A stretch of DNA of 64,000 nucleotides, taken from NCBI GenBank assembly GCA_948567375.1, contig OX419762.1:57554841-57618840 (forward strand), written 5' to 3'. This stretch comes from Lunularia cruciata (taxonomy: Eukaryota; Streptophyta; Marchantiopsida; Lunulariales; Lunulariaceae). Position 1 is the first letter of the stretch; each line of letters starts with the position of its first letter. Of the stretch, positions 11,108-59,334 are shown one piece after another. Made by a program: the position numbers and the translations under genes. Under the pieces are notes generated by a model that was not told where the DNA came from, did no database searches, and was given only the letters and a program-made list of their open reading frames with translations.

Positions 11108-11831
11108 TGTAATGTTCTAGTGATAGTAGATAGATACAAACGAGAAACACAAGTTTTACACTCAAAACTCTAATGCTCTAAAGGAGCACCTTCTCTTTAT
11201 TATATAGCCAAAGAGGATCTACTCCAAGGAAGCTCCACCCTTGGATAAGATACATGGATTGGTGACTTTTCAATGAGTTCCATCCTTAGATTAGTTGTTG
11301 GGATGAGTGACATGTAGGTCCTTGTCTTATCTGGCTGGTCAAACAAGTTTTGATTGAAGGGAATCTTGTAGGAATCTTCAAATCACATGGGTAAGGTACC
11401 ATTGGAAAGCTCTTGTTGAGACAAGACAGGGAGGAGGTAAGGCCAACCTTTCCTCTATTGGGGGATATGTGCATTTTCAAGGTCTAATTCATCTGTTTAG
11501 GCCTCTAAAATTATCTCTAAAGTTTTTAGGCATATTTTGGTTTTTTCACTATTAGTAGAAGTACTCTTTTATTGATACTTATATCTGATCTACTTATTTC
11601 ATCATGTGCAACATCTTTCTAGATATTACCAAACCAAATTTCAACTCTAGATCATATGTCTAGCTATTGGTTCTACGGTTTCAAGCATATTTTGGTTTCT
11701 ACCCTATTAGTAAAGTACTCTTTTGGTGATACCTCTATCTAATCTATTCAGTCCATGATGTACAACATCCTTCTAGATAATACCAAACCAAATTTCACCT
11801 CTAGATGATTTGTTTAGCTATTGGTATTATA
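11108..11831 (-). repeat. C1 5' LTR (family C)
   Basis: A 724-bp LTR in minus orientation. Its inner end (TGTAATG on plus) abuts the PBS, and its outer end reads GGTATTATA, a mutated GGTATTACA. The same length and sequence type occur at 13762-14485, 27051-27646 and 36244-36976. A TATATAATAA box on the minus strand lies at 11197-11206, leaving a short R-U5. Confidence 0.85.
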
Positions 11832-12252
11832 TTGAGTGATGATGGCTTTGCTTGCATCAAGATATGGGTTCATTTATGGATGGATGGTTTTGCTCAGGGA
11901 GAAGGTGACCTTACTTGCACATAGGTGGATTTCCCTGCATGGGTGAGGGGTCCATTCATGTAGGTTGGGATTTAGAGCTTTTTCAAATAATTTTGATAGA
12001 AAATTATTGATAGAATGTTTTTGATAGACTTTGACAAACTCAATTCAACATAAATTTAACCAATATAATTTATAATTCAACTCATATTGGGACAAAGGTA
12101 TTCCAACCCCAAGAAAATCTTCAACCCTAGTGTATTGAGGTCTCTCCCAAATTCCTACGACAACCACTCTATCCTAGCTCTTGTTCAACCATCCCTACTC
12201 AATTTGGGTCATGTTATGTGCAATTTGGTGATAATTGATTAATCATGGTACT
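11832..12252. other. Anonymous flank of C1
   Basis: 420 bp of AT-rich DNA with no ORF, repeat or motif I can name. It is presumably the DNA into which C1 inserted. Confidence 0.4.
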
Positions 12253-13761: not shown

Positions 13762-14485
13762 TATAATCTTCCAAGGATAGGAGACCTGAAGAGAAATACA
13801 AAAGAAGAAACACACAATTTCACACTCAACTTCAGATGTCCTAAAGGAGCACCTTGATTGTATTATATAGCAAATGGGACTCCCCTAAAGGAAGCTCCAC
13901 CCTTGGATCAGATACATGGATTGGTGACATGTAAACAAGCTCTATCCTTAGATTAGGTGACATGTTGGCTTTGATCTTATCTAGTTGGTTAAACCATCTT
14001 TGACCAAAGGGAATTATTATGGAATCTTCTTTAAGGAATCTCCAAATCACGTGGGGATATGATTGCAAAGCTCTTGATGAGACAAACTTGGGAGAGAGAA
14101 GGCCAGCCTTTTCTCTATTTGGGAAATCTACACATTTTTGAGGCCTAATTCATCCATTTGGGGCTCCAAAATTGTTTTCAAGCTATTCTCGGCTCTTACC
14201 CTATTTTAAGAAGTATTATTTGGTGATATTTCTATCTAATCTACTTAGTCCATTATCTACAACATCCTTCCAAATGTTACTAAATCCAGTTTTCACCTCT
14301 AGGTCATATATCTAGCTTTTGGTATTACATTTTCAAGTTGTTTTCAGACTCATGCTCTATTAGTAGAAGTGCTCTTTCTATGACAACTCTCTTTGATCTA
14401 CCTAGCCCATCATACATAACATCCTTCTAGATGTTAGCAAGTCAATTTCTACCTCTAGATAATATATCTAGCTATTGGTATTACA
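13762..14485 (-). repeat. Solo LTR of family C
   Basis: 724 bp, ending GGTATTACA, flanked by a perfect 5-bp TSD, TACAC at 13757-13761 and 14486-14490. It matches the C1 LTR over its length and has no internal region, so it is a solo LTR left by LTR-LTR recombination. Confidence 0.9.
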
Positions 14486-14790
14486 TACACCTACTTCACT
14501 TATCACTAATCCTACCTGTCGTGCGTATATACATCGCTACACAACATACATCACTGTCAATATCATACACTATAGAAGCACAACTCACACATAAGTCATA
14601 CATAGATTCTAAAGTGCAACAATTGCCTCCCTAGCTGGCGGTTAGGCCCCTCTAACTCCAGATAGCTATCTATGCTAAGTATATGGTATACCCTCTAATG
14701 GGCAAAGATCAGGAGGCCGGGTGCTATGAAGCCCCATCGTTAGTCGCCTGTCTGCAATCTATACCATATAAAGAATGAACTAGCTATAGG
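14486..14790 (-). other. L1 3' non-coding remnant
   Basis: About 300 bp downstream of the L1 stop codon on the minus strand. There is no clear polypurine tract or 3' LTR. The 3' LTR was probably lost, or has diverged beyond recognition. Confidence 0.4.
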
Positions 14791-15463
14791 TCAAGTACAT
14801 CTAGGACATAACCACTGTCCTTGAGGAACCACCGTGAGGGGAGGAGTCATACATGCCATATTCCATCCTCTTGAACAACTATCACGCACTAACATAGTAG
14901 CAGCTCCACCAGAAGAGCCACATAACATACACCTCAAGCCTGCACAAGTGCCAAGCTTGGGTCCATAGTACCATCAATGTTTGGAAGGTGGCATGGCGCA
15001 CAATTGCACACATGACCCTTCCAAACAACACCATCATGTCCTTCTAACACAAGGACTCCAAATGGCAAAACCTCACGCACTCTCAAGATAATGCGGCCTA
15101 TAGAAACATCAAGTGTCATTGGTACTGTCTGCTATAGATATACATAGTCGCCTGGATGAAATCAATGGATCAAGGGTCTATAACCTCCTCCTCAAATGGT
15201 AGCATAGCGTAAAGTATCTCTATGTTGAGCAATTGCCAAGTTCTCAAAGGCCATCGGCATCACTCTCTAAAAGATCTTTGCCTGCTGAGAACATGTGCTC
15301 ATCCATACATGGGGGTCATCCAAGTCCAAATAGTAGCATCTCAATGAATGGCTGTAGGTAAATCTGGATCTCATCCATAGAGTAGAAAGTATGGAGAGAA
15401 GGATGCTAAGGAGGCTTGCCGATTGAACCGATAGCCCATGGCCAACCAAGGTAATTGGAGATC
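14791..15463 (-). pseudogene. L1 pol C-terminus: integrase tail and PHD finger
   Basis: After the integrase core the minus strand continues, across frame changes, through WMRSRFTYSHS, MAFENLAIAQHRDTLRYA and FHPGDYVYLQQTVPM to VLPFGVLVLEGHDGV (GPY/F-like) and CAPCHLPNIDGTMDPSLALV. One further frame change leads to a 45-residue PHD finger at 14797-14931. The Cys are at 14929 and 14920, Arg in place of Cys at 14884, Cys at 14875, Asn in place of His at 14860, Cys at 14851, then WLCPRC with Cys at 14806 and 14797. The stop is TGA at 14791-14793. Spacing C-x2-C-x11-[R]-x2-C-x4-[N]-x2-C-x14-C-x2-C fits the PHD pattern; each lost ligand is one base away. PHD fingers read histone H3 tails, so a targeting role like that of chromodomains is the likely function. 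Confidence 0.8.
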
Positions 15464-16036
15464 CTAATCTCCCAAGTGGCCTCTCTGCAAACCATACTTT
15501 TGCAATCCTCTCTTCATTGTCTGAACCACTCTCTCTGCTAAGCCATTTGCCTCAGGGTGAACTTGGGATGTAGTACAATGATCAATCAAAGCCTTGTCAC
15601 ACAAGACCTGAAACTCCCCCAAGAACTCTGTACCCTGATCAGTCAAAACCTCAGCTGGTGCACCAAAATGACTAAGAACTCGATCCAGGAATGAGTAAGC
15701 TGTCCCTTCACTAGACTTGTCAAGAAGTGCCACCAACTCAATCCACTTGGAGAAGTGCTCCACCATCACCAAAACATACCGATGATATCTCACAGTTAGC
15801 GGTAAAGGTCCGGCAAAGTCCAAACTCCAATGGTAACCCAATCCCATGATAGGTAATGGGTGTAATTGTGGTGTAGGAGCATTGAATGATGCTCTAACTC
15901 GGTCACAAACCACACATCTGGCAACAAATTCTTGTACCTCGGTCTGCATACCGCGCCACCAATAATGACTCTGGAGTAAGCTATATGTATGCTTTACTCC
16001 AAAATGTCCTAGCTCCTCATGAGCATGATGGACCAA
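15464..16036 (-). pseudogene. L1 integrase, zinc finger and catalytic core
   Basis: A 190-residue open stretch. The HHCC finger runs HHAHEELGHFGVKH to CVVCDRV. The catalytic core has D in SLDFAGPL, D in LTDQGTEF and E in NGLAERVVQTM, so all three acids are present. It would insert the cDNA into the genome. It continues to the C-terminal part at lower coordinates and follows the RNase H tail at 16067-16456 in the normal order. It ends at a stop after GLQRGHLGD. Confidence 0.9.
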
Positions 16037-16066
16037 CTGTGGTCTTTGAGATAGAAATGGTACTAC

Positions 16067-16456
16067 TCACACTCTACCATCCTCCCATACACGCAAAAGG
16101 TGTCTACCCTCCAATCTGAACCGTCTGGCTCGCTGAAGAACACGGTCTCTTTCCTTGGCCCCAACTGTGCCACCCACAACAACAGTGTGAAGATAGTCCA
16201 TCACTAAGACATCATCATGAATGTCTTGCTGAACTGTACCAATATCTTCACTCTCTGGATCTATGACCTCAATAACTCCTCCTGTATGTGCTGAGAGAGA
16301 TACCACCAAAGCCTCTGCAAATAAACATAGAAAGGCCGATGCATGCCAACCTGACACCATCTCCTCATCTGTCTCACCATGCCAACGTGCTCCGGTCTGA
16401 TCCTGTTGGTTGGGACATGGGTTTCTACTCAACCCATCTATATCACGGTTCACCAC
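16067..16456 (-). pseudogene. L1 linker between RNase H and integrase
   Basis: 129 residues opening with VNRDIDGLSRNP, matching the N-A-D-x-L-S-R end of gypsy RNase H where the chain passes into the tether. The rest (ALVVSLSAHTGGVIEV, RDVLQRARRFRLEGRHLLRVW-like text) is the usual poorly conserved spacer and the start of the integrase N-terminal region. It is in the same strand and order as the neighbours and is interrupted on both sides by stops. Confidence 0.65.
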
Positions 16457-17385
16457 TCCAGGTCTGTGAACAATCGTGAAATCATACTCTTGTAAAATCA
16501 GAGCACATCGTGCAAGCTTCCCTAAAAGCTTGTCGGACTACATCAACCACTTCAATGGCTGATGATCAGTGATGAGAGTGAAGGGGTTACCAAATAGGTA
16601 ACATCGGAAATGTGCTACTGCCCAAACTGCTGTCAAGCACTCTCCCTCATATGAACTATACTTTGCCTCCGCTGAATTGTTGGAGCGACTAGCATAGGCC
16701 ACCACAAACTCCTTCTCCTCATCATCATGCTGGGTGAGCACCGCTCCAAGCCCCAACATACTCCAATCAGTGTGAACCTGAAATGGTAGTCCCCTGATTG
16801 GTCTCCTCAAAATAGGAGCAGATGTCAACCTCTCCTTGAGCTCTACAAAAGCTCTCTCCTGCTCATCCCCCCAACACCACTCATGTCTAAGCTTGGTAAG
16901 CTTTGTCAAGGCCTTGGCAATGACACTAAATCCTCTAACATAGCAGCGATAGAAGTTTGCTAACCCAAGGAATGCTCGCACTCTACTCACATCAGTAGGC
17001 CGAGGAATATGTGCAATAGCCTCCACCTTGGTCTGTTGGACACCAAGTCCTCCGGGGTAGATAGTGTGACCCAAATACTCAACCTGCTTGTGGAAGAACC
17101 TACACTTCCCAAGATGTAATTTGAGTCCATGAGATCTCAACCTATCAAACACCTCCAACAACTGTCTCTCATGCTCCTCCACAGTAGTGCTATAAACCAA
17201 AATGTCATCAATATAGCACTGAGCAAAATCCAATCCAACTAGGATCGTATCCATGACCCTCTGGAACTCAGCAGGAGCATTCTTCAACCCAAATGGTAAG
17301 AACCTCCACTGATATAACACATCCTTGCCGTGAGGATCAATAGCCCAAAATGATGTCTTGGACTTATCCTCCTCCCTGATCGGAC
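16457..17385 (-). pseudogene. L1 reverse transcriptase (C-terminal half) and RNase H
   Basis: The open stretch 16538-17320 holds QWRFLPFGLKNAPAEFQRVM, catalytic YIDDILVYS, YLGHTI, FLGLANFYRCYV and the RNase H core FQVHTDWSMLGLGAVL with ASRSNNSAEAKYSSYEGEC. The RNase H first Asp is kept (VHTD). Upstream, EEDKSKTSFWAIDPHGKD is readable in another frame to about 17385, where it joins gag sequence. The fingers of RT and the whole protease are missing, so an internal deletion has fused gag to mid-RT. Confidence 0.88.
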
Positions 17386-18900
17386 CAACTCCACTGATGC
17401 TCCTCTAGACTCTGGAGCACGTACTGCACTCCTAGTCACTGCTGCAGATGCATCCACCTGTGCTGCTCTGCACATGAAGTCCAAAGCATCTCTATCACCA
17501 ACATATGAGATGGAAGCCTCAACACCCAAATCTGATCTCCTCTGAGCAATAGCCATACTAGCCAATCTCTGCTCCAATTGCTCAAACCAAGTAGCCATAG
17601 CTGTGTCAAAAGTAAGGGCAGGTACTGCACCTCTACTAGGTGTAGATCCTCTACCACCACCTCTACCACCTTGTCCTCCATGAACTAGAGCTCCTCTACT
17701 ACCTGCCATAGTAGCCCTACCACTCCGTAACTCCGCGTGTAGGTCAAAACATTGGTCACTAGTGTGACCAAATATGTGGCAATGATCACATTGCCTCTGT
17801 GCTGGCTGTGATGCACCCAAGGTATCAGGTCCACTGCCTTGAGTAAACTCTCTCTGATGGTGAGGTCCACCACAAGTCCAACAAGAAACACCACCACTCA
17901 CTGGTTGCTGCTGACCCAAAAATGAGGGTAAGGGTCTAACTCCACTCGCTCCATAGCATCTGGGCTGTCCACCCTGTCCTCAAAAACCAACTGGGCGTGG
18001 TGCACTCTGCTGCACTCTAGAAGGAGTCACAGCCGTGGATGAGGTCTCCCTATCAAATCCAGATGTCACCACTCTCTCCTCCACCATGTTGAGCTCAATA
18101 CGCTCAGCCAAACCAAAGACTATTGCCAAAGTGGGCAAAGTAGCCTGCAACAACATAACATCACAAACTCTACGTCGCAACTTCATGTCCAGTATCCCAT
18201 ACCAAAACTGGACTGCCTGGGCCTCAATAACTCCCTGAGTGAAACTGATCAGCCGCCTCATGCGAGTGTATGCCTCGTGTAGGCTCTCTTTAGCCTTCCG
18301 CTGGAACTCCTGCAAGCTCCTCAACTTGTCAGTCTGCACTCCCTGGTAGTTCTACCTCAAACATAGGAAGAACTCTACCATGGGGTTAAGTCCCGGTACC
18401 ACACCACCTCCTGCAGCGGTACCTCTACTCGTAAGAGCACTATCTCCAGCTAGTGCACCTCCACTAGCTCCACCCACACTACTCGAGCTAGAACTTGTAG
18501 GTACAGCCGATCTACTCCTGGCCACCGAGCCTGAAGTGATGCAAACATAGTGTGGAGACCAATACTATCTCCATATTTCAATCTCCTCCAATTGAGCTCT
18601 CTTGAACTCATGGTAGTCATCCATCAGCGGACCCTCCAAGTGCTGAAACAACCCCTTCCATGCCATGAAGGGTGTGAACAAAGTCGGGTTCCGCATCTGC
18701 TGCAGATCACACCAACTATCAAACTCCTAGATGAAGTCATCCTACTCAATGGTACCCACTATACCAGAGTAACACCTAGGGCCTTTGGAGGCCCCATAAA
18801 TCTTGTCTATGTCCCACAACAATGGTGCGGACACACCAAGTGCACTCTCAATTGAATCAGCTCCTATGTTGAACTCCAACTCAGAGTCAATCTCCTCCCT
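17386..18900 (-). pseudogene. L1 gag
   Basis: Minus-strand gag in two main open stretches. 17980-18339 carries the capsid part (SLQEFQRKAKESLHEAYTRM, QAVQFWYGIL, ATLPTLAIVFGLAERIE). 17386-17919 carries CWTCGGPHHQREF, an incomplete knuckle, then CDHCHIFGHTSDQCF, a full CCHC knuckle, then a Gly/Arg-rich patch (GGQGGRGGGRG). Further upstream, a Ser-rich N-terminal text is readable near 18380-18540. The gag fold is inferred from position and the knuckle. It is broken by stops and, at about 17385, by the deletion that joins it to RT. Confidence 0.75.
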
Positions 18901-19419
18901 CACTGGGACCTAAGATATAGGCTGATATCGAGCATCATTCCGAGTAAACCCACTACATACTGCAGGGCTAACTCCTCTAGAATCTCCAAAGAACTCTGTC
19001 GTGACAAAGTAACCGCAACAACAAACCCGAACTACTAACTGCAACCGCAAGTCGCAACCGCAAGTACCCCACCAAGTGCCAACACCACCAAGTGCCAATA
19101 TTAACTAAGCACCACCCACTAATGTAACTCTAATCGAGATAACTACACTAGGGGAAAGGGCAACCTGTAACCTGCCATCATAACACGTACTCTCACGGTC
19201 TGCAGGTCATCACTTCCTGCCTCACTAGAGAGAAACAAAGGTAGTCTAACTGGTCATCACTCCAGCCACACCACCGAGAGCACACCAGAGCACCAACGCT
19301 CAAAAGTTAGGGCACCTCATACAAACGTGGTGCACAAATAGGAAGCAGAGAATAGAGGGGATCCAATCACAAGAAATCTAAACAAAAACCCTCCATCTCA
19401 TAACACAACACGGGACGGA
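18901..19419 (-). other. L1 leader
   Basis: About 520 bp between the gag remnant and the PBS on the minus strand. No ORF is worth naming. It contains a short repeat of CCGCAAGT/CGCAACCG strings near 19010-19070. Confidence 0.45.
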
Positions 19420-19430
19420 CTCTGCCACCA
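19420..19430 (-). promoter_or_regulatory. L1 candidate primer binding site
   Basis: The minus strand reads TGGTGGCAGAG, two bases after the presumed LTR end. It resembles the initiator-Met PBS TGGTATCAGAG with two changes. This is a weak match placed by context. Confidence 0.4.
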
Positions 19431-19432
19431 TT

Positions 19433-19772
19433 TGGCATTTGACATAAGAGAAGTTCGTATCTAAATCCTAAGCTACTAGGATCACCAAGAATAGGATCAA
19501 ACTGCCTCTCCTAGCCAAAACTACATGTGTATAGATAACAATGGCACAATCACTAGGACAACAAGTGAGGGTGGATCAATTGGCTAGGGCACCAGTCTAG
19601 GAACAAGAGATCTAGGGGTCAAACCCTATTGCGCACAATCTAGCAAGAAAGGTAGATTTTGCCAACCAATGACCAAGATCTACTCTAAACTAGCTAGCCT
19701 CATGCCAGCAAGCTGGCTTGCTGGCCCTATGAAGTCCTAGACTTCTAGGCATTTGTAGCCTCTCATAGCCCA
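19433..19772 (-). repeat. L1 5' LTR, inner part
   Basis: 340 bp between the PBS and the E1 insertion. With 25364-26420 it would make an LTR of about 1,392 bp. The inner end is taken as TGGCATTTGACA. Because no second copy exists in the window, the boundary is inferred from the PBS. Confidence 0.5.
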
Positions 19773-19842
19773 TGTAACAATATGGAGTTTAGCGATGAAG
19801 TTAGTCGGGCTTACAAAGTAGAGAATAAGACAAAATAGCCTA

Positions 19843-19855
19843 GAATATTCAAGAA
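19843..19855 (+). promoter_or_regulatory. Heat-shock-element-like motif in family E U3
   Basis: GAATATTCAAGAA has three alternating GAA/TTC units at 5-bp spacing, the arrangement bound by heat shock factors. Equivalent sites are at 25027-25039, 46017-46029 (one mismatch), 53186-53198, 59005-59017 and 63883-63895 (minus). Function is inferred from the motif only. Confidence 0.5.
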
Positions 19856-20069
19856 GCATCTAAGAAGCTTCTTGGGAAGCTTCCCAACTAGTAAACTTGT
19901 GCTCTAAGCAGGTAGCTTCTAGAAGCTTCTAACTAGCTTAGCTTGCATGCCAAGTAGGCGGCTTCTAGAAGGAAGCTTCTTGAGAAGCTTCCTGGTTAAC
20001 TTGGCTTGCACTCCAAGAAAGCGGCTCAAGGAAGCTTCTTGAGAAGCTTCAAGGGTCTTGTATGCTACC

Positions 20070-20077
20070 TATAAATA
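20070..20077 (+). promoter_or_regulatory. TATA box of the family E LTR
   Basis: TATAAATA in CTACCTATAAATACCAAAGCC is conserved in all E1-E3 LTRs. The start site would be near 20100, giving a U3 of about 330 bp and a short R-U5. Confidence 0.65.
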
Positions 20078-20183
20078 CCAAAGCCAAAGCTCATGCTAGG
20101 CATTCGGAGTTTTTACTCATTCAAGTGTCCCAAATGTGAGTTTCCATTCTCCTATTTCTCTCCTCGGTTTTGGTCATTTACAT

Positions 20184-20195
20184 TGGTATCAGAGC
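20184..20195 (+). promoter_or_regulatory. E1 primer binding site, initiator tRNA-Met
   Basis: TGGTATCAGAGC is separated from the LTR by one T. The same site is in E2 at 46358-46369. Confidence 0.93.
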
Positions 20196-20204
20196 AAGAA
20201 TGGG

Positions 20205-20420
20205 ATGGATGGAATTTATGGACCACCAAATCCACTTCCGCCAAACCATTGGGACTTTCATGTCCAGATATTACCAAAGCATTGTTTCACACAATTCATC
20301 ACCTCGCGCTTTGGGCAGGATTTTCTACATATGATCACCGTGTTAGAGGAACCCCAGATACTTCCAGTTGTAACTTATGGAGAACAGTGGACGTGTTATA
20401 TCTATGTGTTTATCAATTAG
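20205..20420 (+). CDS. Leader ORF of family E (71 aa) before gag
   Basis: The ORF starts with ATG ten bases after the PBS and ends TAG before gag. It begins MDGIYGPPNPLPPNHWDFHV and ends CYIYVFIN. The same frame is kept in E2 with one CAG-to-TAG change, and its 3' part is visible in E3 (54340-54405) and E4. A second, overlapping frame (ending LDKLRVVE at 20443) is also open in E1 and E2, so which frame, if either, is translated is unclear. No domain is recognised. It could be an upstream regulatory ORF or simply conserved leader RNA. Confidence 0.35.
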   Translation: MDGIYGPPNPLPPNHWDFHVQILPKHCFTQFITSRFGQDFLHMITVLEEPQILPVVTYGEQWTCYIYVFIN

Positions 20421-20453
20421 ATAAATTGAGGGTAGTGGAATAGAGTAGTAGCG

Positions 20454-21363
20454 ATGGCGGCAATACCGGATGTTATCCTTGCAATGCAACAACAAATCAA
20501 GCATCTTACTCAATTATTGGATGAACGAGACCAACAACGACAAAAACAAATAGACAGAGCGCCAGTTTGAGATGGAGAAGATCGCATTTGATTTCCGAAA
20601 CCCAAGGTGTTTGAAAGCAAGAATCTTCCCGGCATAGTGGAGAATTTTGTGTTTGACTGCAAACATTACTTTGAAGCCACCAATCTTCAACACGAGTGGA
20701 AACAAATTCTCTTGGCTTCTAGCCAATTGGATGGCATGGCAAAACTTTGGTGGCGATTCCGAGTAGAAAGAGCTGAATGACAAATTGTTACACCGATTTT
20801 GACATGGGCAAAATTCAAGGAGGCAATACTTGGTCGATTTCAAACTATAAATGCCACCCAAGCCGCACGAGATAAATTGGCAGAGTTGAGGCAAATTGGC
20901 TTAGTAAGAAGCTACATCACACAATTTTAGAAAAGCATCATGCAATATTTCAGATATCAAAGAAGGTGAAGTTTTGGATCGATTTGTGCAAGGATTGAAG
21001 CCACAAACCAGATTGGAGGTGACCATGCGAGAGCCACAAAATGTAGAAGAAGCCATGCAATTGGCTGAGCATTTTTATTCCTTGGTTGCGACAACTTGGT
21101 CTTGACCTCAACCTACACAAAGCCTACCAGTACCACGAGTGGAAGAACCGGTACCAATGGAGATTGATGCTATCCAACAAAGACCACTTGGCACAGCAGA
21201 TAGAGAAAGATTATGACAAAATAGAGGTTGCTTTTATTGTCACCAAGTTGGACATTGCATTGCTGAATGTCCACTTAGGAATGGGTGACCTCGACAAGTT
21301 GCCCAGATGGAGTTTGTGGAACAGAATGATCAAGGAAATGAAGAATCCCAGTAGGAGATTTTG
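20454..21363 (+). pseudogene. E1 gag
   Basis: Starts ATGGCGGCAATACC and reads MAAIPDVILAMQQQIKHL, then a capsid domain with LASSQLDGMAKLWWRF and ILTWAKFKEAILGRFQTINAT, then ARDKLAELRQIG. Stops and shifts occur from about 20568 on. The CCHC knuckle, clear in E2 as CFYCSQVGHHIVEC, is present here only in a shifted frame near 21230. The capsid/nucleocapsid role is inferred from family knowledge. It is followed by protease in the usual order. Confidence 0.85.
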
Positions 21364-21439
21364 AGCCACCTACTAGGAGCTTGATTAGTTCCAATGGGAT
21401 TGAAGGCTCGATGTATGCAAGTTTGCTTCATTTGCAAGG

Positions 21440-21735
21440 TATGATATCTAATTAGGGTTGTAGGATTTTGGTTGATTTTGGAAGTTCAGAGAATTGCATG
21501 TCTATGCAAGTAGCAAAGGAATTGGGTATTCCTATCAAGCTAGTGTTTGGAAGTAGGTTGAGGATGGCGGATGGTAGAAAGGGTTCTGCATTCCTCACCT
21601 CACATCTTGTTACCTTCAAGATTGGGAAGGAGTATTTAGATTGTATGAGGTTTGTAGTGGCACCTCTACACTATGATATCATTCTGGTTCTACCTTGGCT
21701 TGAACGTCATAAGGTTCAATTTGATTGGACGTGAC
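21440..21735 (+). pseudogene. E1 protease
   Basis: The open stretch 21468-21734 follows ILVDFGSSENCMSMQVAKELG. The active-site Asp is present, but the next residue is Phe (codon 21477-21479) where Ser or Thr is usual, and the same change is in E2 and E3. It goes on to HYDIILVLPWLERHKVQFDW, the typical D-x-I-L-G-x-P-W end of gypsy proteases. It ends at a TGA. Confidence 0.85.
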
Positions 21736-21818
21736 GACAAATTCAAGTACAACACCAAGGTAGAAATTTCAGATTAGGTTGTCTAGCACCTTTGAGTAAG
21801 ACAGCTAAGAATAGTCAG

Positions 21819-21998
21819 TCCCAAGATGGGAAGTTTGTCAAGAAGGAAGCCATAGAGCAAATCTGGAAGGGAGATGAGTCTCAAGATGGGAATTTTGCCA
21901 AGAAGGCAACCATTGGGCAAGCTTGGAAGAGAGATGGGTCCTTGGAAGGGAAGTTTGTTAATGAAGCGGCCATAGAGCAAGCTTTGGAGGAAGATAAG
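21819..21998 (+). repeat. Three 60-bp tandem repeats in the PR-RT linker of E1
   Basis: Three units of 60 bp encode 20 residues each, with the pattern S-[QL]-[DE]-G-x-F-x-[KN]-[KE]-x-x-I-x-Q-x-[WL]. Units start at 21819, 21879 and 21939. E2 (47999-48178) and E3 (55804-55983) have the same three units, so the array predates the copies. Confidence 0.85.
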
Positions 21999-21999
21999 T

Positions 22000-23420
22000 T
22001 TGTATTCGCGATGTGGATCAAGCCGATTGCACAAGAACAATCTGAGGAGGGCCAAGAGCCTCATCAAGCAATGGTTGATCGGATAGTTCAGGAGTTTGCA
22101 GATGTGTTTCTGGATGATCTGCCAAAGGGATTACCCTTTGATTGAGGTATGCCCTTCAAGATCGAGTTATTGCTAAGGAGTACTCCAGTGAGTAGACCAA
22201 TCTCTCAGCTCTCACCAAAGGAGTTGGAGGAGTTGCAAACAACACTTACAGAGTTGTTGGAGAAGGATTTCATACGACATAGTACTATTTGTTCCAAAGA
22301 AGGATGGAGGACTTTGTTTTTGTATTGATTACCGTGGACTCAATAAGCAAACAATGAAGAATGCATATCCCTTGCCTCGGATCAATGACCTGCTTGATCA
22401 ACTAAGTAGAGCACACTACTTTTCCAAGCTGGATCTTCATAGCGGCTATACGCAAATTCCTATTGAAGGCGAGGATGTGCAAAAGACTGCTTTTTGCACA
22501 AGGTATGGACATTTCAAGTGGAGAGTTCTACCTTTTGGACTCACTAATGCTCCAGCAGTTTTCATGGATCAGATGCATCGGGTGTTGGAGGGACTATTGG
22601 ATCGGTCCGTGGTGGTTTTCTTAGATGATATCTTAATCAATAGCAAGATAGAGGCAAAACACATGAATCATGTGCAAGAAGTCCTAAGACAACTATGACA
22701 GTGGAAATTTTACTGCAAGAAGTCAAAGTGTGCTTTTTGGCAGAAGGAGGTTACTTTCTTGGGTCATAAGATCTCATCAGAGGGGATCAGATGGAAGAAG
22801 AGAAGATCAAGGCCATTACTGATTGGCCTACTTCAAAGGATGCTACAGAAGTGCAAGTATTCAATGGATTGGCCAGTTTTTACCAACGGTTCATCCACTA
22901 TTATGCTCACGTGGCTGCACCATTGATTGACCTCTTGGGAAAGAACTCAAGCTTCTAGTGGACCACCAAGCAGGAAGAAGCATTCCAGAAGTTAAAGCAT
23001 ATGGTGTCTTCAAGACCCATTCTTCAACTATATGATCCTCAACTACCTTGTGTGGTTGATTTTGATGCTTCTAACTTTGCAATTGGAGCTGTGTTGCAAC
23101 AAGAATTTCTAGATGGACTACATCCTATTGTCTTTGTGTCTCGCCGACTAAATACAGCTGAAAGGAATTACTCTGCTCGAGATCAGGAACAACTTGCAAT
23201 GGTATATGCCACCAAGGTATGGAGGCATTATCTCTTGGGGAAACAAGTGATCATGCGGATTGATCATAAGCCATTGTTGCAGACCTTACACTTGGAACAT
23301 ATGAAGAGTCGGCATCATCGATGGGAAGAGTAACTCCAATTGTTTGACATCAAACTTGAGTACAAACCAGGTCGGTTCCATGTCATCCCTGATGCTCTAT
23401 CACGACAACCTGATTTGAAG
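22000..23420 (+). pseudogene. E1 reverse transcriptase and RNase H
   Basis: RT begins after VQEFADVFLDDLPKGLP. Motifs are [46 protein letters not shown] and catalytic FLDDILI (22618-22629). About 25 bp present in E2 (encoding part of [14 protein letters not shown]) is missing near 22280, shifting the frame. RNase [42 protein letters not shown], ending IPDALSRQPD near 23410. Several TGA and TAG stops interrupt it. The enzyme would copy element RNA into DNA. Confidence 0.9.
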
Positions 23421-23439
23421 ACTCTTCTTCTCATCACGG

Positions 23440-24740
23440 TGGCAATTACAACGGTGTCCATTGACCCTAAGGTCCATAATGAGTTTCAATCAGCTCTACA
23501 ACAAGATCCCTTCTTCCGAATGGTACACGGTCATCTGACACCATGCAACAAGGAGTACAACACCTTCTCCTTCAAGGAAGGTCTTTTATTCCATGTAGAC
23601 CAGATCTATGATCCAGCCAAAGGTGATCATCAACTTGTGCGCCTTCAAGAAGCCCATGATTTACCAATAGCTGGTCACATGGGAGTGGACAAGACCTTGG
23701 GTACCCTCCAACGCCAATGGTGGTGGCCCAACATGACACGAGATGTTCAAGACTTTGTCCGATCATGTGAGAGTTGCCAACGTAACAAGGCCAGCAACCA
23801 AAAGCCAAGTGGACTTCTTCAACCACTCGCCATTCCATCCACTCATTGGGAGCATGTGAGCTTGGATCTCATCACATCCTTGCAAAGTCAAAACAAGGAC
23901 ACACCGCAATCGTGGTGTTTGTGGATAAGCTTAGAAAGCAAATCCACTTGGCACCAACCTATGATACCGTGGATGCTCTAACCTTAGCGCAAATCTACTT
24001 TGACAACGTCTTCAAGCATCATGGGATGCCATGTCTACTCATCTCCAACCGTGATCCTTGATTTACCGGGAAGTTTTGGCAAGCACTCTTTCTTATACTC
24101 AGCACCAAGCTTGCTTTGTCCATGGCCTATCATCCTCAAACTGATGGACAAACCAAACATGCAAATCATACATTGGAGGATATGTTGCGGGCCTTTGTCA
24201 ATGTCCACCATACCAATTGGGATGAATGTCTTATAGCTGTAGAATTTGCCTACAACAATTCCAAACAGGCAAGCACCGGATTTTCTCCCTTCTTTCTCAA
24301 TTTTGGCCAAGATCCGCTTGTTCCAGATTCTCTTCGTGCTCCCCCTCCCTCTCAAGTTCCTCATACTTCCACATTCTTGACCACTATATCCCAATCTCTC
24401 CAACAAGCCAAGTCTCACCTCCTTGTTGCTCAGAATCGCCAAAAACAATATGCGGACCACCATCATTGTGATCTCACCTTTGAAGTTGGTGATAAATTCA
24501 TGCTATCCTCTAGTAACCTCCCTCTCCTACTTGATACCCAAGTTTGTAAACTTGCTCCTAATTGGATAGGACCCTTTGATATCACCCACATTGTCTCTCC
24601 TGTTGCTTATCGACTTGCCTTGCCTTGCCTTATGCGTATCCATCCTGTCTTTCATATTTCCAAGTTGAAACCCTTTGTTCCTAACCCCTCCTCCTTTTTC
24701 CTCTTGAGTCCAACCTCCTCCTTTGCCTATCCCTATCAAC
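23440..24740 (+). pseudogene. E1 integrase
   Basis: HHCC finger: EAHDLPIAGHMGVDKTLG to CESCQRNKAS (about 23650-23800). Core: D in SLDLITS (near 23865), D in SNRDP (near 24050), then [19 protein letters not shown] where the third catalytic acid (E of DGQTE in the family) is Lys, codon AAA at 24155-24157. The same Lys is found in E2 and E3. A frameshift near 23885 and a TGA after NRDP break the frame. The C-terminal GPF motif (NWIGPFDITH) is at about 24560. It inserts element DNA when intact; this copy cannot. Confidence 0.9.
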
Positions 24741-24930
24741 GATCATGAGGAGTACGAAGTTGATCGTATTCTTGCACGTCGTCATATTCAACAAAGCCGT
24801 CGCCAACATACGGAGTACAAGGTCCCTTGGAAAGGGTATCCCCTTCATGATGCCACATGGGAACCTCTTTCCCACCTCCAAAATGCACAGACGTCCATCA
24901 AGGAATTCAAAGCTTCACTGGCGATGAGGA
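24741..24930 (+). pseudogene. E1 chromodomain at the end of pol
   Basis: EEYEVDRILARRHIQ and TEYKVPWKGYPLHDATWEPLSHL (about 24747-24905) show the E-V-x-x-I-L start and W-x-G-[YF]-x-x-x-x-x-T-W-E-P core of a chromodomain. The aromatic positions Tyr and two Trp are kept. Chromodomains bind methylated histone H3 and steer integration to heterochromatin. This places family E in the chromoviruses. Confidence 0.9.
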
Positions 24931-24943
24931 TGTCACCAACTAG

Positions 24944-24956
24944 TAGCGGGGGAATA
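24944..24956 (+). promoter_or_regulatory. E1 polypurine tract
   Basis: TAGCGGGGGAATA lies directly before the 3' LTR. The same motif occurs before the E2 and E3 3' LTRs (AACGGGGGAATA, GGCGGGGGAATA). Confidence 0.65.
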
Positions 24957-25363
24957 TGTAACAATATGGAGTTTAGCGATGAAGTTAGTCGGGCTTACAA
25001 AGTAGAGAATAAGACAAAATAGCCTAGAATATTCAAGAAGCATCTAAGAGGCATCTAATCTAACTTGCGCTCTAAGCAGGTAGCTTCTAGAAGGAAGCTT
25101 CTAGAAGCTTCTAACTAGCTTAGCTTGCACGCCAAGTAGACGGCTTCTAGAAGGAAGCTTCTTGAGAAGCTTCTTGGTTAACTTGGCTTGCACTCCAAGA
25201 AAGCAGCTCAAGGAAGCTTCTTGAGAAGCTTCAAGGGTCTTGTATGCTACCTATAAATACCAAAACCGAAGCTCATGCTAGGCATTCGGAGTTTTCCCTC
25301 ATTCAAGTGTCCCAATGTGAGTTTCCATTCTCCTATTTCTCTCCTTGGTTTTGGTCTTTTACA
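24957..25363 (+). repeat. E1 3' LTR
   Basis: 407 bp, TGTAACAATATGG to TTTTACA. It differs from the 5' LTR by substitutions and by length changes in the AAGCTT-rich part. The heat-shock-like motif GAATATTCAAGAA is at 25027-25039. Confidence 0.93.
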
Positions 25364-26420
25364 GTCCACAGCCCTATGCCCCAAAGCCTCGAAATGCCAA
25401 AATTCAGCCAAATGAGGCCTTTCTTGTTGCCATTTCAAACCTCCTCCAAAATTGGCAAAACTTCTCCAAATCTGTGAAAGTCCTCCAAACTAGCGAAAGT
25501 CCTCCAAATCTGGCCAAACAGCAAAAACTCCTCCAAAATCTGACGTAAATCCCAACCAAAATCTGACGTAAACCCTAAAGTTGGTTGTCCACCAAATCCC
25601 TCTCTAACTTTCCACTCGAGCCAAATTCACAACACGAGTTTTTCCAAATCACAAATTCATGAGAAGAGCTTCCCAACTCCACCTTCAATTTGACTTTCTG
25701 AGCCCAACTCGCAGCAAATTGGTCCTGCTTTCACCTCCTGAGCTCAAAATCACAACCACTGCTCAAAATTTGCTCCTTCTTTGCTCAAAATTTGGCCAGC
25801 ACTTCCGTACAATGTCTGCCTAACTGCCAAATTTGCATCAATTGAACGAGCTTCTGCACCCTAAGGAAACACTGAACTTCAATTGAGCTACCAATGATCC
25901 ACTGAGCTTGGAGATACCACCAACACTCAAAGTTCATGCACCCGATTTCCCCTTACTTCACTTCTCTGATGTAAAAAGATTGCTTACCACTCTCAACTCA
26001 ACTCAACTTAGATCAGTACTTGATCTGTCACTCTATAAACTGCCAACAATTGGACACTAATTACAGTCAAGCCACACCCACTCAAGCATAGAGAATCCAG
26101 GTGAGACTCGCCGGCCTCTATCCACCATAGCCAAGAACTCGAAGGCTCAACATTAGAGAAATGAGCTCTTTGGAGCTCACTTTGAAACTATACCCCCTAG
26201 ACTCAAGCTAGCTCTAAAACCCTAACGGTCTCGCTGATGGCACATGCGATGGTGCAAACGGTGCAAAGTAACGGTGGGCCCCACCGTGAAGTCAGTACCC
26301 CGAACATGAAATCTAACCGTCATAAAGTAGTCTCTCAGAAATTGCTGAAATAACTCTAACTACTATCACTGGAACTCTAGTGTCCGAGCATCTAGATGCG
26401 GCACTACAAATGGCGTGACA
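25364..26420 (-). repeat. L1 5' LTR, outer part
   Basis: 1,057 bp right of E1. Its outer end on the minus strand reads TGTCACGCCATTTG, a plausible LTR start. It is richer in C than the surroundings and has no ORF. The LTR identity is inferred from the PBS on the far side of E1 and this terminus; no partner LTR confirms it. Confidence 0.5.
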
Positions 26421-27050
26421 TACCTATCAATCTTATCCTAAGCATAATTAAGGAGTGATTGCACACCCGCCACCAATCACAACTACTCCTTGTCATTTAT
26501 TGTACAAGTATGACATTCTTGCAAACATAGGCAAAAAGAAATTTTGGGCAAAGATATATATATATCAAGATGACCCTATAATTCAAGGCCAAAGAGAATT
26601 TCAGGCCGAGAATGTGTTCTATACTTGACAAAATTTTGCCTATTTCCCTTGGGCTAACAATAAACTTCTTCCCAATATCTAATGTGAAGAGCTAACTTTG
26701 CCTTTTGCAAATCTTAATCAACAAATCTCCCCATTCTTGATAATTCGTGTAATGTCCACCAATAGCAATTTTGTGGCATCTTCAAATTGTTTTGAAGTGT
26801 GTTTTATTAACCTATCTTCTAGCTACTCCAATTGCTTGACTGAGTAGCTGTTTGTGGTCAGAGCATGTGCTTGAGATCAAGAATCTTGAGCTTTCAACTT
26901 CTCCAAAGAGACCTCTAGTACCTCTTTTGCAATTTCCTCCTCAGATGGTCCCATGCCATCTCCATCTTTACCAAAATGGTTGTATTCTCCAAATTGAAAT
27001 GGTTTTATTGACCTTTTAACTCAGCCAAATTTTTTTCCCAAATGGTTATC
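26421..27050 (-). pseudogene. H1 downstream ORF relic, distal part
   Basis: The minus strand reads MGPSEEEIAKEVLEVSLEKL and, after stops, LEDRLIKHTSKQFEDATKLLL. This looks like the continuation, across the family C solo LTR, of the charged ORF at 27647-29900. Left of about 26690 I see no coding signal; a short TA run is at about 26558-26569. The assignment to H1 is an inference from strand and composition. Confidence 0.35.
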
Positions 27051-27646
27051 CATAATGTTTCAAGGACAAGAGAACCCCCAAGAGAAACATGAGAGAAACA
27101 CAAGGCTTCATTCCTTGATAATCCAATCCCCAAAGGAGCACCTTGTTTATATTATATAGCAAAGAGCATCCACTCAAAGAGAGCTCCATCCTTGGATCAT
27201 ATACATGGATTGGTGAGATATCAACAACTCCACCCTTAGATTAGTTGCATGAATTGGTGACATGTTGATCCTTGTCTTATTGGTTGGTCAAAAAAGTTTG
27301 ACCAAAGGAAATCTTTGGGAATCTTCTTATAAGAAGCTCAAAATAGTATGGATGAGGTACCATTTGAAAGCTCTTAACAAGATGAACCTGGAGAGAGGGG
27401 GTTGAACCACCACCTTTGTGCTTCTAGAAGACTAATTTTTATTTTTTCAAGGCCTAATACATCCATTTTGGCCTCCAAAATTGGCTCTAAAGTTTTCAAG
27501 ATGTTTTTGATCTCTACCCTATTATTGAAGTACTCTTTTGGTGACACTTCTATCTGATCTACTTAAATCATAACATGCATTATCCTTCTAAATATTGTCA
27601 TGCCAATTTTCACCTCTAGATAATATGTCTAGCTAATGATATTACA
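27051..27646 (-). repeat. Solo LTR of family C, shortened
   Basis: 596 bp with the family C blocks (AAAGGAGCACCTTG, GAGCTCCATCCTTGGATC, the ATATTACA end) but about 130 bp shorter than the others through deletions. No TSD is visible (TTATC against CAACC), so it is older or rearranged. Confidence 0.75.
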
Positions 27647-36243: not shown

Positions 36244-36976
36244 TGTAATACTCTGAGGACAAGAGAAGAGAGAAAACACAAATTTCACACTCAAACATTC
36301 GATGCCCCAAAGGAGCACCTTCTCTTTATTATATAAACAAAGAGGATCTCCTCCAAGGAAGCTCCACCATAGGATTAGGGACATAGATAGGTGATATGTC
36401 AGAAAGCTCCACCCTTGGATTACTTACTTGGATGGGTGACATGTTTGGTCTAGGTCCTATCTGGTTGGTCAAGCTTTGACCGAAGGGAATCTTTTAGGGA
36501 ATCTTCTTGTAGGAATCTCAGAATCACGTGAGTAAGGTACCGTTGGAAAGCTCTCGACGAGACAAAGCAGGGAGGAGTAAAGGCCAACCTTTCCTCCAAT
36601 GGGGGGCAATTTGTACATTTTCTAGGCCTAATTCATCCGTTTAGGCTTCAAAATTGCCTTCAAAGATTTCAGGCATATTTCGGTTCCTACTCTATTAGTA
36701 GAAGTCACATTTTGGTGATACCTCTTTCTGATCTGTTTAGTCCATCATGTGTAACATCCTTCCAGATGTTACCAAACCAATTCTCACCTTTAAATCATAT
36801 GTCTAGCTATTGGTTCTAAGGTTTTCAAGTCTATTTTGGTTTCTACCCTATTAGTAGAAGTATTATTTTGGTGATACTTCTATCTTATCTATTTTGACCA
36901 TCATGTATAACGTCATTCTAGATGTTACCAAACCAAATTTCACATCTAGATCATATGGCTAGCTCTTGGTATTACA
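36244..36976 (-). repeat. Solo LTR of family C inside the A2 leader
   Basis: 733 bp, TGTAATACTCTGAGG to GGTATTACA. The TSD is AAGGT (36239-36243) and AAGGC (36977-36981). The empty site is seen in A1 at 3270-3277 (TAGAAGGCAAGA), which confirms the insertion. Confidence 0.93.
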
Positions 36977-45946: not shown

Positions 45947-46356
45947 TGCAACAATATGGAGTTTAGCGACGAAGTTAGTTGGGCTTACGAAGTAGAGAAT
46001 AAGACAAAATAGCCTAGAATACTCTAGAAGCATCTAAGAAACTTCTTGGGAAGCTTCCCAACTAGTTAACTTGCACCCTAAGCAGGTAGCTTTTAGAAGC
46101 TTCTAACTAGCTTAGTTTGCACGCCAAGTAGGCGGCTTCTAGAAGGAAGCTTCTTGAGAAGCTTCTTGGTTAACTTGGCTTGCACTCCAAGAAAGCGGCT
46201 CAAGGAAGCTTCTTGAGAAGCTTCTTGGGGTCTTGTATGCTACCTATAAATACCAAAGCCGAAGCTCATGCTAGGCATTTGGAGTTTTCCCTCATTCAAG
46301 TGTCCCAATGTGAGTTTCCATTCTGCTATTTCTCTCCTCAGTTTTGGTCTTTTATA
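45947..46356 (+). repeat. E2 5' LTR
   Basis: 410 bp, TGCAACAATATGG to CTTTTATA, each end one transition from the family consensus. It has a heat-shock-like site with one mismatch at 46017-46029. The PBS TGGTATCAGAGC is at 46358-46369. Confidence 0.92.
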
Positions 46357-46627
46357 TTGGTATCAGAGCAGGAATGGGATGGATGGAATTTATGGACCAC
46401 CAAATCCACTTCCGCCAAACCATTGGGACTTTCATGTCTAGATATTACCAAAGCATCGGTTCACACAATTCATCACCTTGCGCTTTGGGCAGGATTTTCT
46501 ACATATGATCACCCTATCAGAGGAACCCTTGATACTTCCAGTTGTAACTTATGGAGAACGGTGGACATGTTGTATCTATGTGTTAATCAACTAGATAAAT
46601 TGAGGGTAGTGGAATAGAGTAGTAGCA

Positions 46628-47525
46628 ATGGCAGCAATACCGGATGTTATCCTTGCAATGCAACAACAAATCGAGCATCTTACTCAATTGGTGGATGAAC
46701 GAGACCAACAACGACAAGAATAGATAGACAGAGTGCCAGTTCGAGATAGAGAAGATCGCATTTGATTTCTGAAACCCAAGGTGTTTGAAGGCAAAAATCT
46801 TCCAAGCACAATGGAGAATTTTGTGTTTGACTGTGAACGTTACTTTGAAGCCACCAATCTTCAAGACGAGCGGAAACAAATTCTCTTGGCTTCTAGCCAA
46901 TTGGATGGCATGGCAAAACTTTGGTGGCGATTCCGAGTAGAAAGAGCTGAACAAAAAATTGTTACACCAATTTTGACATGGGCAAAATTCAAAGATACAA
47001 TACTTGGTCGATTTCAAACTATAAATCCCACTTGAGCTGCACGAGATAAATTGGCGGAGTTGAGGCAGATTGGCTTAATAAGAAGCTACATCACACAATT
47101 TCAGAACATCATCATGCAAATTCCAAATATCCAAGAAGGTGAAGTTACTGGATCAATTTGTGCGAGGATTGAAGTCACGAACCAAATTGGAGGTGACCAT
47201 GCAGGAGCCACAAAATGTAGAAGAAGCCATGCAATTAGCTGAGCATTTTGATTCCTTGGTTGCAACAACTTGGTCTTGACCTCGACCTACACAAAGCCTA
47301 CTAGTACACTACGCATGAGTGGAAGAACCGGTACCAATGGAGATTGATGATATCCAAGAAAGACCACTTGGCACAGCAGATAGAGAAAGATTACGACAAA
47401 ATGGAGGTTGCTTTTATTGTAGCCAAGTTGGACATCACATTGTTGAATGTCCACTTAAGAATAGGCGACCTCAACAAGTTGCTCTGATGGAGTTTGTGGA
47501 GCAGAATGAGCAAGGAAACGAATAA
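46628..47525 (+). pseudogene. E2 gag
   Basis: It starts MAAIPDVILAMQQQIEHL. Capsid text runs from 46781 (MENFVFDCERYFEATNL, LASSQLDGMAKLWWRF, LTWAKFKDTILGRFQTIN) with a TGA near 47033, continuing ARDKLAELRQIGLIRSYI. After shifts, 47319-47525 gives EEPVPMEIDDIQERPLG and the knuckle CFYCSQVGHHIVEC with all four ligands. This is the best family E gag in the window. Stops at several CAA or CGA-derived codons make it non-functional. Confidence 0.88.
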
Positions 47526-53070: not shown

Positions 53071-53115
53071 GCTTCACTAGCAACGAGGATGTCACCAACT
53101 AGCAACGGGGGAATA

Positions 53116-53539
53116 TGTAACAATATGGAGTTTAGCGACAAAGTTAGTCGGGCTTACAAAGTAGAGAATAAGACAAAATAGCCTAGAATATTCTAGAAGC
53201 ATCTAAGAAACTTCTTGGGAAGCTTCCCAGCTAGTTAACTTGCACCCTAAGCAGGTAGCTTCTAAAAGGAAGCTTCTAGAAGCTTCTAACTAGCTTAGCT
53301 TACACGCCAAGTAGGCGGCTTCTAGAAGGAAGCTTCTTGAGAAGCTTCTTGGTTAACTTGGCTTGCACTCCAAGACAGCGGCTCAAGGAAGCTTCTTGAG
53401 AAGCTTCTTGGAGTCTTGTATGCTACCTATAAATACCAAAGCCAAAGCTCATGCTAGGCATTTGGCGTTTTCCCTCATTCAAGTGTCCCAATGTGAGTTT
53501 CCATTCTCCTATTTCTCTCCTTGATTTTGGTCTTTTACA
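53116..53539 (+). repeat. E2 3' LTR
   Basis: 424 bp, TGTAACAATATGG to TCTTTTACA. It is 14 bp longer than the 5' LTR because of extra AAGCTTCTAG units. A perfect heat-shock-like motif GAATATTCTAGAA lies at 53186-53198. Confidence 0.93.
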
Positions 53540-54055
53540 TATATTCCTACAAAATTGCATGAATCTCTTATCCTAAGGATATTTTGCCCTTTCTATTTTT
53601 TTCATCTTTGGTCCACATCATGCACAAGGTGTAATCTGTTCTCTTTGCCAAGCCATTGGAGCTTTAATTATAAGAGATAGTTTGTCTATTTGTGATAGAG
53701 AAATGTCATTGCATGCATGTGGTGATACTTCCTATAAACTCTCCTCTTCTTTCAGAAACCAACTCCAAAGGGCATCAAGACCTAGTGATGATGCATTCAT
53801 AAAGAAATCTACCAACTTCATCTTCATTTGTGTCTCTAAATGGTTGAGCTTCAATCCACTTGGTAAGGTAATCAATAACTATCACAATGTGCCAATTATT
53901 CTTTGGGGTTCTATTAAGAGTACCTACAAAGCCAATTCAAAAGATCCTAGTAATGGAATTGATCTAAGAGGTTGAGTAGAGGTAGACTTTTGAGCAAAAT
54001 CTTGACAAAAATTACAAGTTTTGTAATAATCAAGAGAATTTTTAAAAATTCTACC
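53540..54055 (-). pseudogene. A3 pol: integrase core fragment
   Basis: The minus strand reads, with stops, the family A integrase: DYYKTC region, STSTQPLRSIPLLGSF, NRTPKNNWHIVIVIDYLTKW, NEDEVGRFLYECIITRS, PLELVSERRGEF and SSNGLAKRTDYTLCMM. The second catalytic Asp reads Glu and the Glu of LAERTN reads Lys, so it was dead. It continues the A3 pol cut by E2. It stops at about 54055, where family E leader sequence (E4) begins, so the rest of A3 is lost. Confidence 0.8.
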
Positions 54056-58900: not shown

Positions 58901-58934
58901 AACAAGGATGTCACCAACTAGCGGCGGGGGAATA

Positions 58935-59334
58935 TGTAACAATATGGAGTTTAGCGACAAAGTTAGTCGGGCTTACGAAGTAGCACATAAGAAAAATTAG
59001 CCTAGAATATTCTGGAAGTATCTAGGAAGCTTCCCCGCTACCTTAGCTTGCACCTCAAGTAAGTAGCTTCTAGAAGCTTCCAACTAGCTTAGCTTGCATG
59101 CCAAGTAGGCGGCTTCTAGAAGGAAGCTTCTTGAGAAGCTTCCTAGTTAACTTGGCTTGCACTCTAAGAAAGGGGCTTGAGGAAGCTTCTTGAGAAGCTT
59201 CTCAAGGGCCTTGTATGCTACCTATGGATACCAAAGCCAAAGCTCATGCTAGGCATTTGGAGTTTTCCCACATTCAAGTGTCCCAATGTGAGTTTCCATT
59301 CTCCTATTTTTCTCCTCAGTCTCGGTCTTTTACA
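58935..59334 (+). repeat. E3 3' LTR
   Basis: 400 bp, TGTAACAATATGG to GGTCTTTTACA. It has a heat-shock-like motif GAATATTCTGGAA at 59005-59017 and a diverged TATA region (CTATGGATACC). Confidence 0.92.

Follow-up and report, generated by a model that had tools for sequence, protein, structure and literature searches.

A decayed Ty3/gypsy copy ends in a PHD finger

The stretch of DNA analysed here (the window) comprises 64,000 nucleotides of the genome of Lunularia cruciata (C12:57554841-57618840 of the host assembly, 565.8 Mb in 74 contigs) and carries on its minus strand a decayed Ty3/gypsy retrotransposon whose polyprotein ends, behind the integrase, in a PHD finger. An earlier note, made from the letters alone, had placed such a finger at 14791-14943, in the position that chromoviruses give to a chromodomain, and had proposed that it might direct integration to chromatin. 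This element, referred to as PHD-gypsy, has terminal repeats that we call M and A, and its copy in the window consists of the following features.

14517-26420, minus strand: whole PHD-gypsy copy in M-body-A form; its TGTC...GACA ends are like those of host copies, and 4-bp target duplications flank it on either side
26421-26424: target site duplication GGTA (minus-strand reading), 5' side
25977-26420, minus strand: repeat M, 444 bp, 5' terminus; 91.4% match to M of host copy L002
17386-18792, minus strand: gag in broken frames, with CCHC-like knuckles recognised by eye; 43.7% match to residues 7-370 of Sphagnum protein P0025
17383-17386, minus strand: deletion junction, where the gag match stops and the reverse transcriptase (RT) match starts
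16538-17383, minus strand: C-terminal part of RT and RNase H (PF00078, PF17919 and PF17917 in 16538-17320; RT match from 17383)
15464-16036, minus strand: integrase, H2C2 zinc domain (PF17921, E 7.5e-16) and DDE core (PF00665, E 7.9e-13)
14944-15463, minus strand: integrase C-terminal tail with frameshifts and stops; 71% match to residues 412-542 of P0003 in shifted frames
14791-14943, minus strand: PHD finger and stop codon (PF00628, E 3.1e-8), two of eight ligands changed
14517-14623, minus strand: repeat A, 107 bp, 3' terminus; 94.4% match to A of L002
14513-14516: target site duplication GGTA (minus-strand reading), 3' side
19773-25363, plus strand, approximate limits: nested chromovirus-like element, not part of the PHD-gypsy copy, with a pair of stretches resembling long terminal repeats (LTRs) at about 19772-20182 and 24956-25363 (89%) and an SH3_Tf2-1 domain in the open reading frame 24116-24748

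The order RT, RNase H and integrase, with an integrase of the DDE type, is that of Ty3/gypsy elements. The copy is split by the nested element and has also suffered an internal deletion, which removed the DNA methyltransferase described below, the start of RT and anything else between gag and RT, a region that is present in host copies L038-L040.

Read on the minus strand, positions 14943 to 14791 translate as AGLRCMLCGSSGGAATMLVRDSCSRGWNMACMTPPLTVVPQGQWLCPRCT followed by a stop codon, and the spacing C-x2-C-x11-R-x2-C-x4-N-x2-C-x14-C-x2-C obtained from this translation is exactly the one given in the earlier note. Two of the eight zinc ligands of the C4HC3 signature are therefore changed in this copy; they had been interpreted as Arg in place of Cys and Asn in place of His, and Cys and His do occupy these places in the 38 full-pattern relatives presented below (by selection) and in 29 of 30 host copies. 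The domain call was borne out by profile search, in which Pfam PF00628 scored 33.9 bits (E=3.1e-8; cut-off 24), and the top entries in a comparison with PDB sequences are solved PHD fingers, CHD4 giving 6.4e-13 (among 60 of 108 matches listed, E up to 10). A hidden Markov model (HMM) built from only the 38 full-pattern relatives assigned 69.3 bits to the window finger and 7.0 to the second-best stop-free six-frame piece of the window (at least 25 residues), the highest score being 13.7 bits in 100 dinucleotide shuffles of the window and 14.8 in 2000 residue shuffles of the peptide. The finger begins about 177 codons past the open integrase piece on the same strand, and the H2C2 domain and DDE core upstream, together with a tail that matches relatives, place it at the C-terminus of a Ty3/gypsy polyprotein, as had been claimed.

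The finger recurs at the same place in relatives

A protein search with the open integrase piece of the window copy, padded with X to loosen the length filter, returned 73 proteins, of which 63 (43-89% identity in the matched part) constitute the ingroup and 10 the outgroup. The finger was located in them by a pattern fixing the first seven ligands and leaving the eighth open to Cys or His. The full zinc pattern is present in 38 of the 41 ingroup relatives that are long enough to show it, extending 220 residues or more beyond the integrase piece; gypsy polyproteins with an integrase followed by a PHD finger, which the earlier note had suggested looking for, do exist in number. None of nine outgroup tails of at least 150 residues has the pattern. 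The result is this 38 of 41 and not the constancy of the first seven ligands within the 38, because the selection pattern fixes them. The last ligand is Cys in 35 proteins, which thus possess all eight C4HC3 ligands, and His in 3 more. The finger lies 177-188 residues past the integrase piece in 37 of the 38, and 290 residues past it in P0012, whose integrase is partly doubled.

Precomputed domain annotation lists PF00628 for 40 of the 73 hits and the chromodomain PF00385 for none of them (at least 22 end early), and PF00385 was also absent from domain scans of P0003, P0010, P0014, P0021, P0037, P0045, P0051, P0052 and P0057; no chromodomain thus follows the integrase as it does in chromoviruses. 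The PF00628 scores of P0003, P0014, P0021 and P0045 were 38.4-47.1 bits. In an integrase tree of 67 hits, the window integrase and two other elements of the window (the 6 hits with a match below 150 residues were left out), 59 ingroup hits and the window copy (60 rows) are separated from the rest by a branch supported at 100/98, and the window copy neighbours a protein of Riccia sorocarpa (100/86). Named members of this clade come from the liverworts Riccia, Calypogeia and Marchantia, the moss Sphagnum, the streptophyte alga Klebsormidium and the chlorophyte Tetrabaena, the others being metagenomic, transcriptomic or unnamed. Among the proteins with a named source, only P0012 of Klebsormidium nitens extends far enough to show the PHD; the models from the liverworts, the moss and Tetrabaena stop short of its site or lack part of the integrase. 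A protein search with the PHD alone yielded 5 candidates, none significant, and scans of viral contigs with the PHD, the integrase piece and an alignment detected no relative.

Just before the PHD, a constant N-C-A-P-C-H motif was observed in P0003, P0014 and relatives. The second Cys of this motif lies some 21 residues ahead of the PHD, is invariant in 28 aligned pol proteins and is a possible further zinc ligand. Behind the PHD, P0039 has an extra C-terminal part that weakly matches PTM_DIR17_Tudor (E 3.9e-5, under the cut-off of that profile) and may be a second chromatin reader. Extra C-terminal parts are also present in P0027, P0037, P0038, P0043, P0051, P0052, P0055, P0057 and P0060; domain scans of four other tails of this kind revealed nothing of note.

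Host copies are numerous and recent

Of 7354 first-look candidates obtained by searching the host genome with the PHD peptide, 150 became scored matches; almost all of these are 96% alike, and several lie in open frames of at least 900 and up to 1043 residues that run through the PHD. Because copies should not be chosen by their PHD, a second set was collected using as the query 167 bases of non-coding DNA from behind the finger (40 scored of 1042 candidates), and 30 of these 40 became loci. All eight ligand codons are intact in 29 of the 30 copies; one copy (L041) is the source of the query, and among the others 28 of 29 keep them all. In nine copies the M repeats within a copy are 97.2-99.1% alike (246-453 columns compared), and the family has therefore spread recently. 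It covers 11.0% on average of 40 random stretches (first 700 bases of each), 6 of them with at least 100 bases, a rough figure from a small sample, in which the random stretches and the 30 copies alike were drawn from just two contigs, C1 and C2, and cover means matches of at least 70% identity, near kin included. In host copies L014 (4472-5487) and L015 (4870-5839), stretches of methyltransferase and of gag sit beyond repeat M; these copies adjoin relatives from their own group and probably landed inside them.

Split terminal repeats and a DNA methyltransferase

Host copies start with the 444-bp repeat M (TGTC...) and finish with A-M-A, where A is 107 bp long and ends in GACA. In all four long 5' stretches M stands alone at the terminus, and A is absent from all 12 5' stretches examined; on the 3' side of the 30 copies we found A-M-A in 26, A only in 2, A-M-A-M-A in 1 and none of these arrangements in 1. 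Perfect 4-bp target duplications flank all 9 host copies in which both ends were found (12 tried), as well as the window copy, whose single M and single A are what recombination between two A repeats would leave. The short target duplications and TG...CA ends (TGTC/GACA) are those of Ty3/gypsy elements; their two identical LTRs in direct order are missing. The split direct repeats (M-body-A-M-A) are instead those of DIRS elements, from which the family departs in having a DDE integrase and 4-bp duplications rather than a tyrosine recombinase and no target duplication, although no search was aimed at a tyrosine recombinase. A DDE integrase and 4-bp duplications alongside split repeats were observed across L002-L013, L014-L017, L041-L070 and the window (14517-14623, 25977-26420).

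Assembled from separate stretches of host copies, the element reads M, gag, C5 DNA methyltransferase, RT, RNase H, DDE integrase, PHD and A-M-A. The methyltransferase stretch lies between gag and RT in all three host copies read (L038-L040), is 60% identical to the Marchantia one and has stops in places. Such stretches occur in 10 of the 63 ingroup proteins (P0025, P0033, P0035, P0037, P0041, P0043, P0051, P0052, P0057 and P0073), of which 5 have the full PHD pattern and P0035 part of one. In P0037 and P0051 they immediately precede the integrase; in Sphagnum P0025 they separate gag from RT, and in the Marchantia model P0073, which has gaps, gag from RNase H. Because the methyltransferase sits at differing places, it and the PHD need not have moved as one unit.

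Neighbouring repeats in the window

A repeat at 13786-14486 was considered as the 3' LTR of the PHD-gypsy copy and rejected; it is a mere neighbour about 30 bp off, because the true 3' end of the element is at 14517. It belongs, together with 11128-11832, 27052-27646 and 36253-36976, to a repeat family whose members are 70-80% alike, measure about 600-730 bp and contain a tandem duplication of about 156 bp. Stretches related to the nested chromovirus-like element occur elsewhere in the window at 45947-47174, 53115-53540 and 58934-59334.

Type of finger and its possible function

Readers of histone H3 trimethylated at lysine 4 (H3K4me3) of the ING and BPTF type have a cage Trp two residues before the ligand His, a place taken by Gly in 36 and by Ala in 2 of the 38 full-pattern fingers. 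The residue after the third ligand is acidic, namely Asp, in 34 of the 38, and residues outside the ligands and core vary widely. A profile search of PDB structures matched fingers of CHD4, MLL3, KMT2D, DPF, KDM5, ATXR5, BAZ2, PHF21A, UHRF1 and AIRE among the 60 of 123 matches listed, and no entry named ING, BPTF or ALFIN was among these 60. Several of the CHD4, KDM5, ATXR5, PHF21A, AIRE and UHRF1 fingers bind unmodified H3. Because of the Gly or Ala at the cage position and of a list of structures without ING, BPTF or ALFIN, we lean towards a finger that would read unmodified H3 rather than H3K4me3.

With moderate confidence, we interpret the window motif as the degenerate form of a PHD finger that is conserved at the end of Pol in a distinct Ty3/gypsy lineage and that most likely tethers the integrase to the H3 tail. 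Intact fingers would bind zinc; cleavage of the polyprotein would give an integrase-PHD product in which the finger remains on the C-terminus of the mature enzyme, and there it would hold the pre-integration complex to the tail of histone H3 during insertion by the DDE core, which cuts with a 4-bp stagger. The PHD would in this way do what chromodomains do in chromoviruses. An engineered precedent exists, as the ING2 PHD fused to the integrase-binding domain of LEDGF shifted HIV-1 integration towards transcription starts (PMC8149907).

Several observations weigh against tethering. The window copy itself is incapable of any activity, with several stops, at least two frame changes between the integrase core and the PHD, and gag joined to mid-RT by the deletion. 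The full pattern is not found in 3 of the 41 relatives of sufficient length: P0028, whose tail goes astray past the last common motif (a frame change by eye), P0035, with a partial finger, and P0059, with a weak match and a longer loop. A stop lies inside the finger in 3 of the 30 host copies, 2 of these being among the 29 with intact ligands. Evidence of selection on the finger is weak in these 30 copies, as the pairwise ratio of replacing to silent substitution rates (dN/dS) is 0.38 for the PHD vs 0.50 for the integrase tail. Variants common to several copies number 5 silent to 5 replacing in the PHD and 17 to 36 in the tail, and singletons 1 to 10 and 22 to 39, respectively; together with the dN/dS values, these counts may be taken as a hint, not proof, of constraint on the PHD. 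A lower PHD value of 0.13 was set aside as biased, since the copies behind it had been chosen by PHD protein score.

Insertion sites point the same way. We compared 700 bases of 3' flank from 28 of the 30 copies with 40 random places on C1 and C2, and found no difference in cover by window repeats (0.333 in flanks vs 0.473 at random places, p=0.32), in cover by the PHD-gypsy family (0.107 vs 0.110, p=0.91) or in the content of guanine plus cytosine (0.378 vs 0.386). Therefore no targeting is visible at this coarse level, and the test, which concerns repeats and base composition rather than histone marks, argues against any strong preference for repeat-rich or repeat-poor DNA on these two contigs. 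Of the proposal in the earlier note, the lineage with a PHD in the place of the chromodomain holds, whereas the part on histone reading and targeted integration gained nothing from this comparison.

The null result in the flanks also fits an explanation in which the finger acts as a structural zinc module within the tail of the integrase, serving folding, multimer contacts or nucleic-acid binding, with no histone reading at all. The wide variation outside the ligands and core agrees with such a role, but the fingers keep the full PHD signature, including the acidic residue after the third ligand, and their best sequence matches are fingers of chromatin proteins; we regard a purely structural role as unlikely. 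It is a little harder still to believe that the PHD mainly serves the element's own DNA methyltransferase, although reader and writer in one polyprotein could then methylate the element's own DNA or its site. Host Dnmt3, with its histone-reading ADD domain, offers a model for this arrangement, and the recurrence of methyltransferase stretches in ingroup proteins and host copies, half of the ten ingroup cases with a full PHD, counts in its favour. Retrotransposon DNA methyltransferases are reported to methylate CG de novo, and the authors of that study propose self-methylation (PMC5890265). However, the PHD sits behind the integrase, far from the methyltransferase, the position of the latter differs among relatives, and 33 of the 38 full-PHD proteins show no methyltransferase in the available protein, where an upstream open reading frame could still hold one.

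The frameshifts of the window copy, in which PHD and integrase are in different frames, might on their own have suggested a chance zinc-like pattern or a host PHD exon caught beside a dead element. This explanation, whose probability we consider negligible, is refuted by an HMM score of 69.3 bits vs at most 13.7 in 100 shuffles of the window, by the same finger position in 37 of 41 relatives, and by host copies with long open frames through the PHD. Tethering of the integrase to H3 is the account that we retain, at the strength given above.

Relation to known elements

The nearest published element is KnitGypsy-Dnmt3 of Klebsormidium nitens (de Mendoza et al. 2018, PMC5890265), a Gypsy whose pol includes a Dnmt3 and whose repeats are arranged in the manner of DIRS elements. 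Judged by its published description, it shares with the host copies both the methyltransferase in a Gypsy pol and the DIRS-like repeats, and the terms "PHD", "zinc finger" and "chromodomain" are absent from the main text on it (figures and supplements were outside the scope). The K. nitens protein P0012 falls in the PHD clade and may be of one family with KnitGypsy-Dnmt3; the PHD-gypsy lineage is probably kin of the latter.

Chromoviruses, with a chromodomain of the CHD or CHDCR type, resemble PHD-gypsy in their RT, RNase H and integrase order and in having a domain of the chromatin-reader type at the integrase C-terminus; they differ in that this domain is a chromodomain, in contrast to the PHD and the split terminal repeats found here. 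A CR1-like long interspersed nuclear element with a PHD in a retroelement protein was reportedly described by Kapitonov and Jurka in 2003, but it is a non-LTR element and its PHD is not on an integrase. The non-chromoviruses of REXdb (Athila, Tat, Phygy and Selgy) have, like PHD-gypsy, a Gypsy pol without chromodomain. In the portion consulted of that survey (Neumann et al. 2019, PMC6317226), PHD is not among the eight domains of plant LTR elements and no non-chromovirus was found in algae, unlike the PHD clade with its Klebsormidium and Tetrabaena members. The main text of a survey of 121 angiosperm genomes names no PHD among 15 extra domains, the full chart being in its supplement (Alvarado-Marchena et al. 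2022, PMC9289625). In Ginger1-9_HM, as far as its description was consulted (PMC2836005), a gypsy-like DDE integrase is likewise followed by a C-terminal part with a PHD, but this is a DNA transposon of Hydra with an Ulp1 domain and no RT. Further texts retrieved for PHD (PMC3286476, PMC7602945, PMC10799480, PMC6875170, PMC9181549, PMC9915684, PMC4112212, PMC8912903 and PMC3601003) were discarded, the term belonging, in the parts consulted, to a thesis, a host gene or a reference, or being absent from the main text. Searches of an open-access library yielded no description of a Gypsy integrase-PHD fusion among the papers listed, a scope outside which subscription papers, supplements and Repbase fall. 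What appears to be new here is the Ty3/gypsy lineage with a PHD in the chromodomain's place; a Dnmt3-bearing Gypsy with DIRS-like repeats was known already.

Targeted integration by integrase-borne readers is known mainly from chromodomains. A PHD in the place of the chromodomain, in a clade that includes algae and bryophytes and in recent and abundant copies, offers a natural experiment on whether the chromatin that an element reaches depends on the reader it carries, and its company with a methyltransferase raises the question of whether retroelements mark chromatin themselves. Going further, one may tentatively picture, as a possibility that we would not yet call probable, a deep green-plant Gypsy lineage with its own chromatin kit, in which an integrase-PHD reading unmodified H3 and a C5 DNA methyltransferase, carried between split repeats of the kind that tyrosine-recombinase elements have, would choose and mark the chromatin in which the element lands. 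If true, this kit would be a second solution to the task of chromodomains, in an element that accounts for about one tenth of the host sequence sampled.
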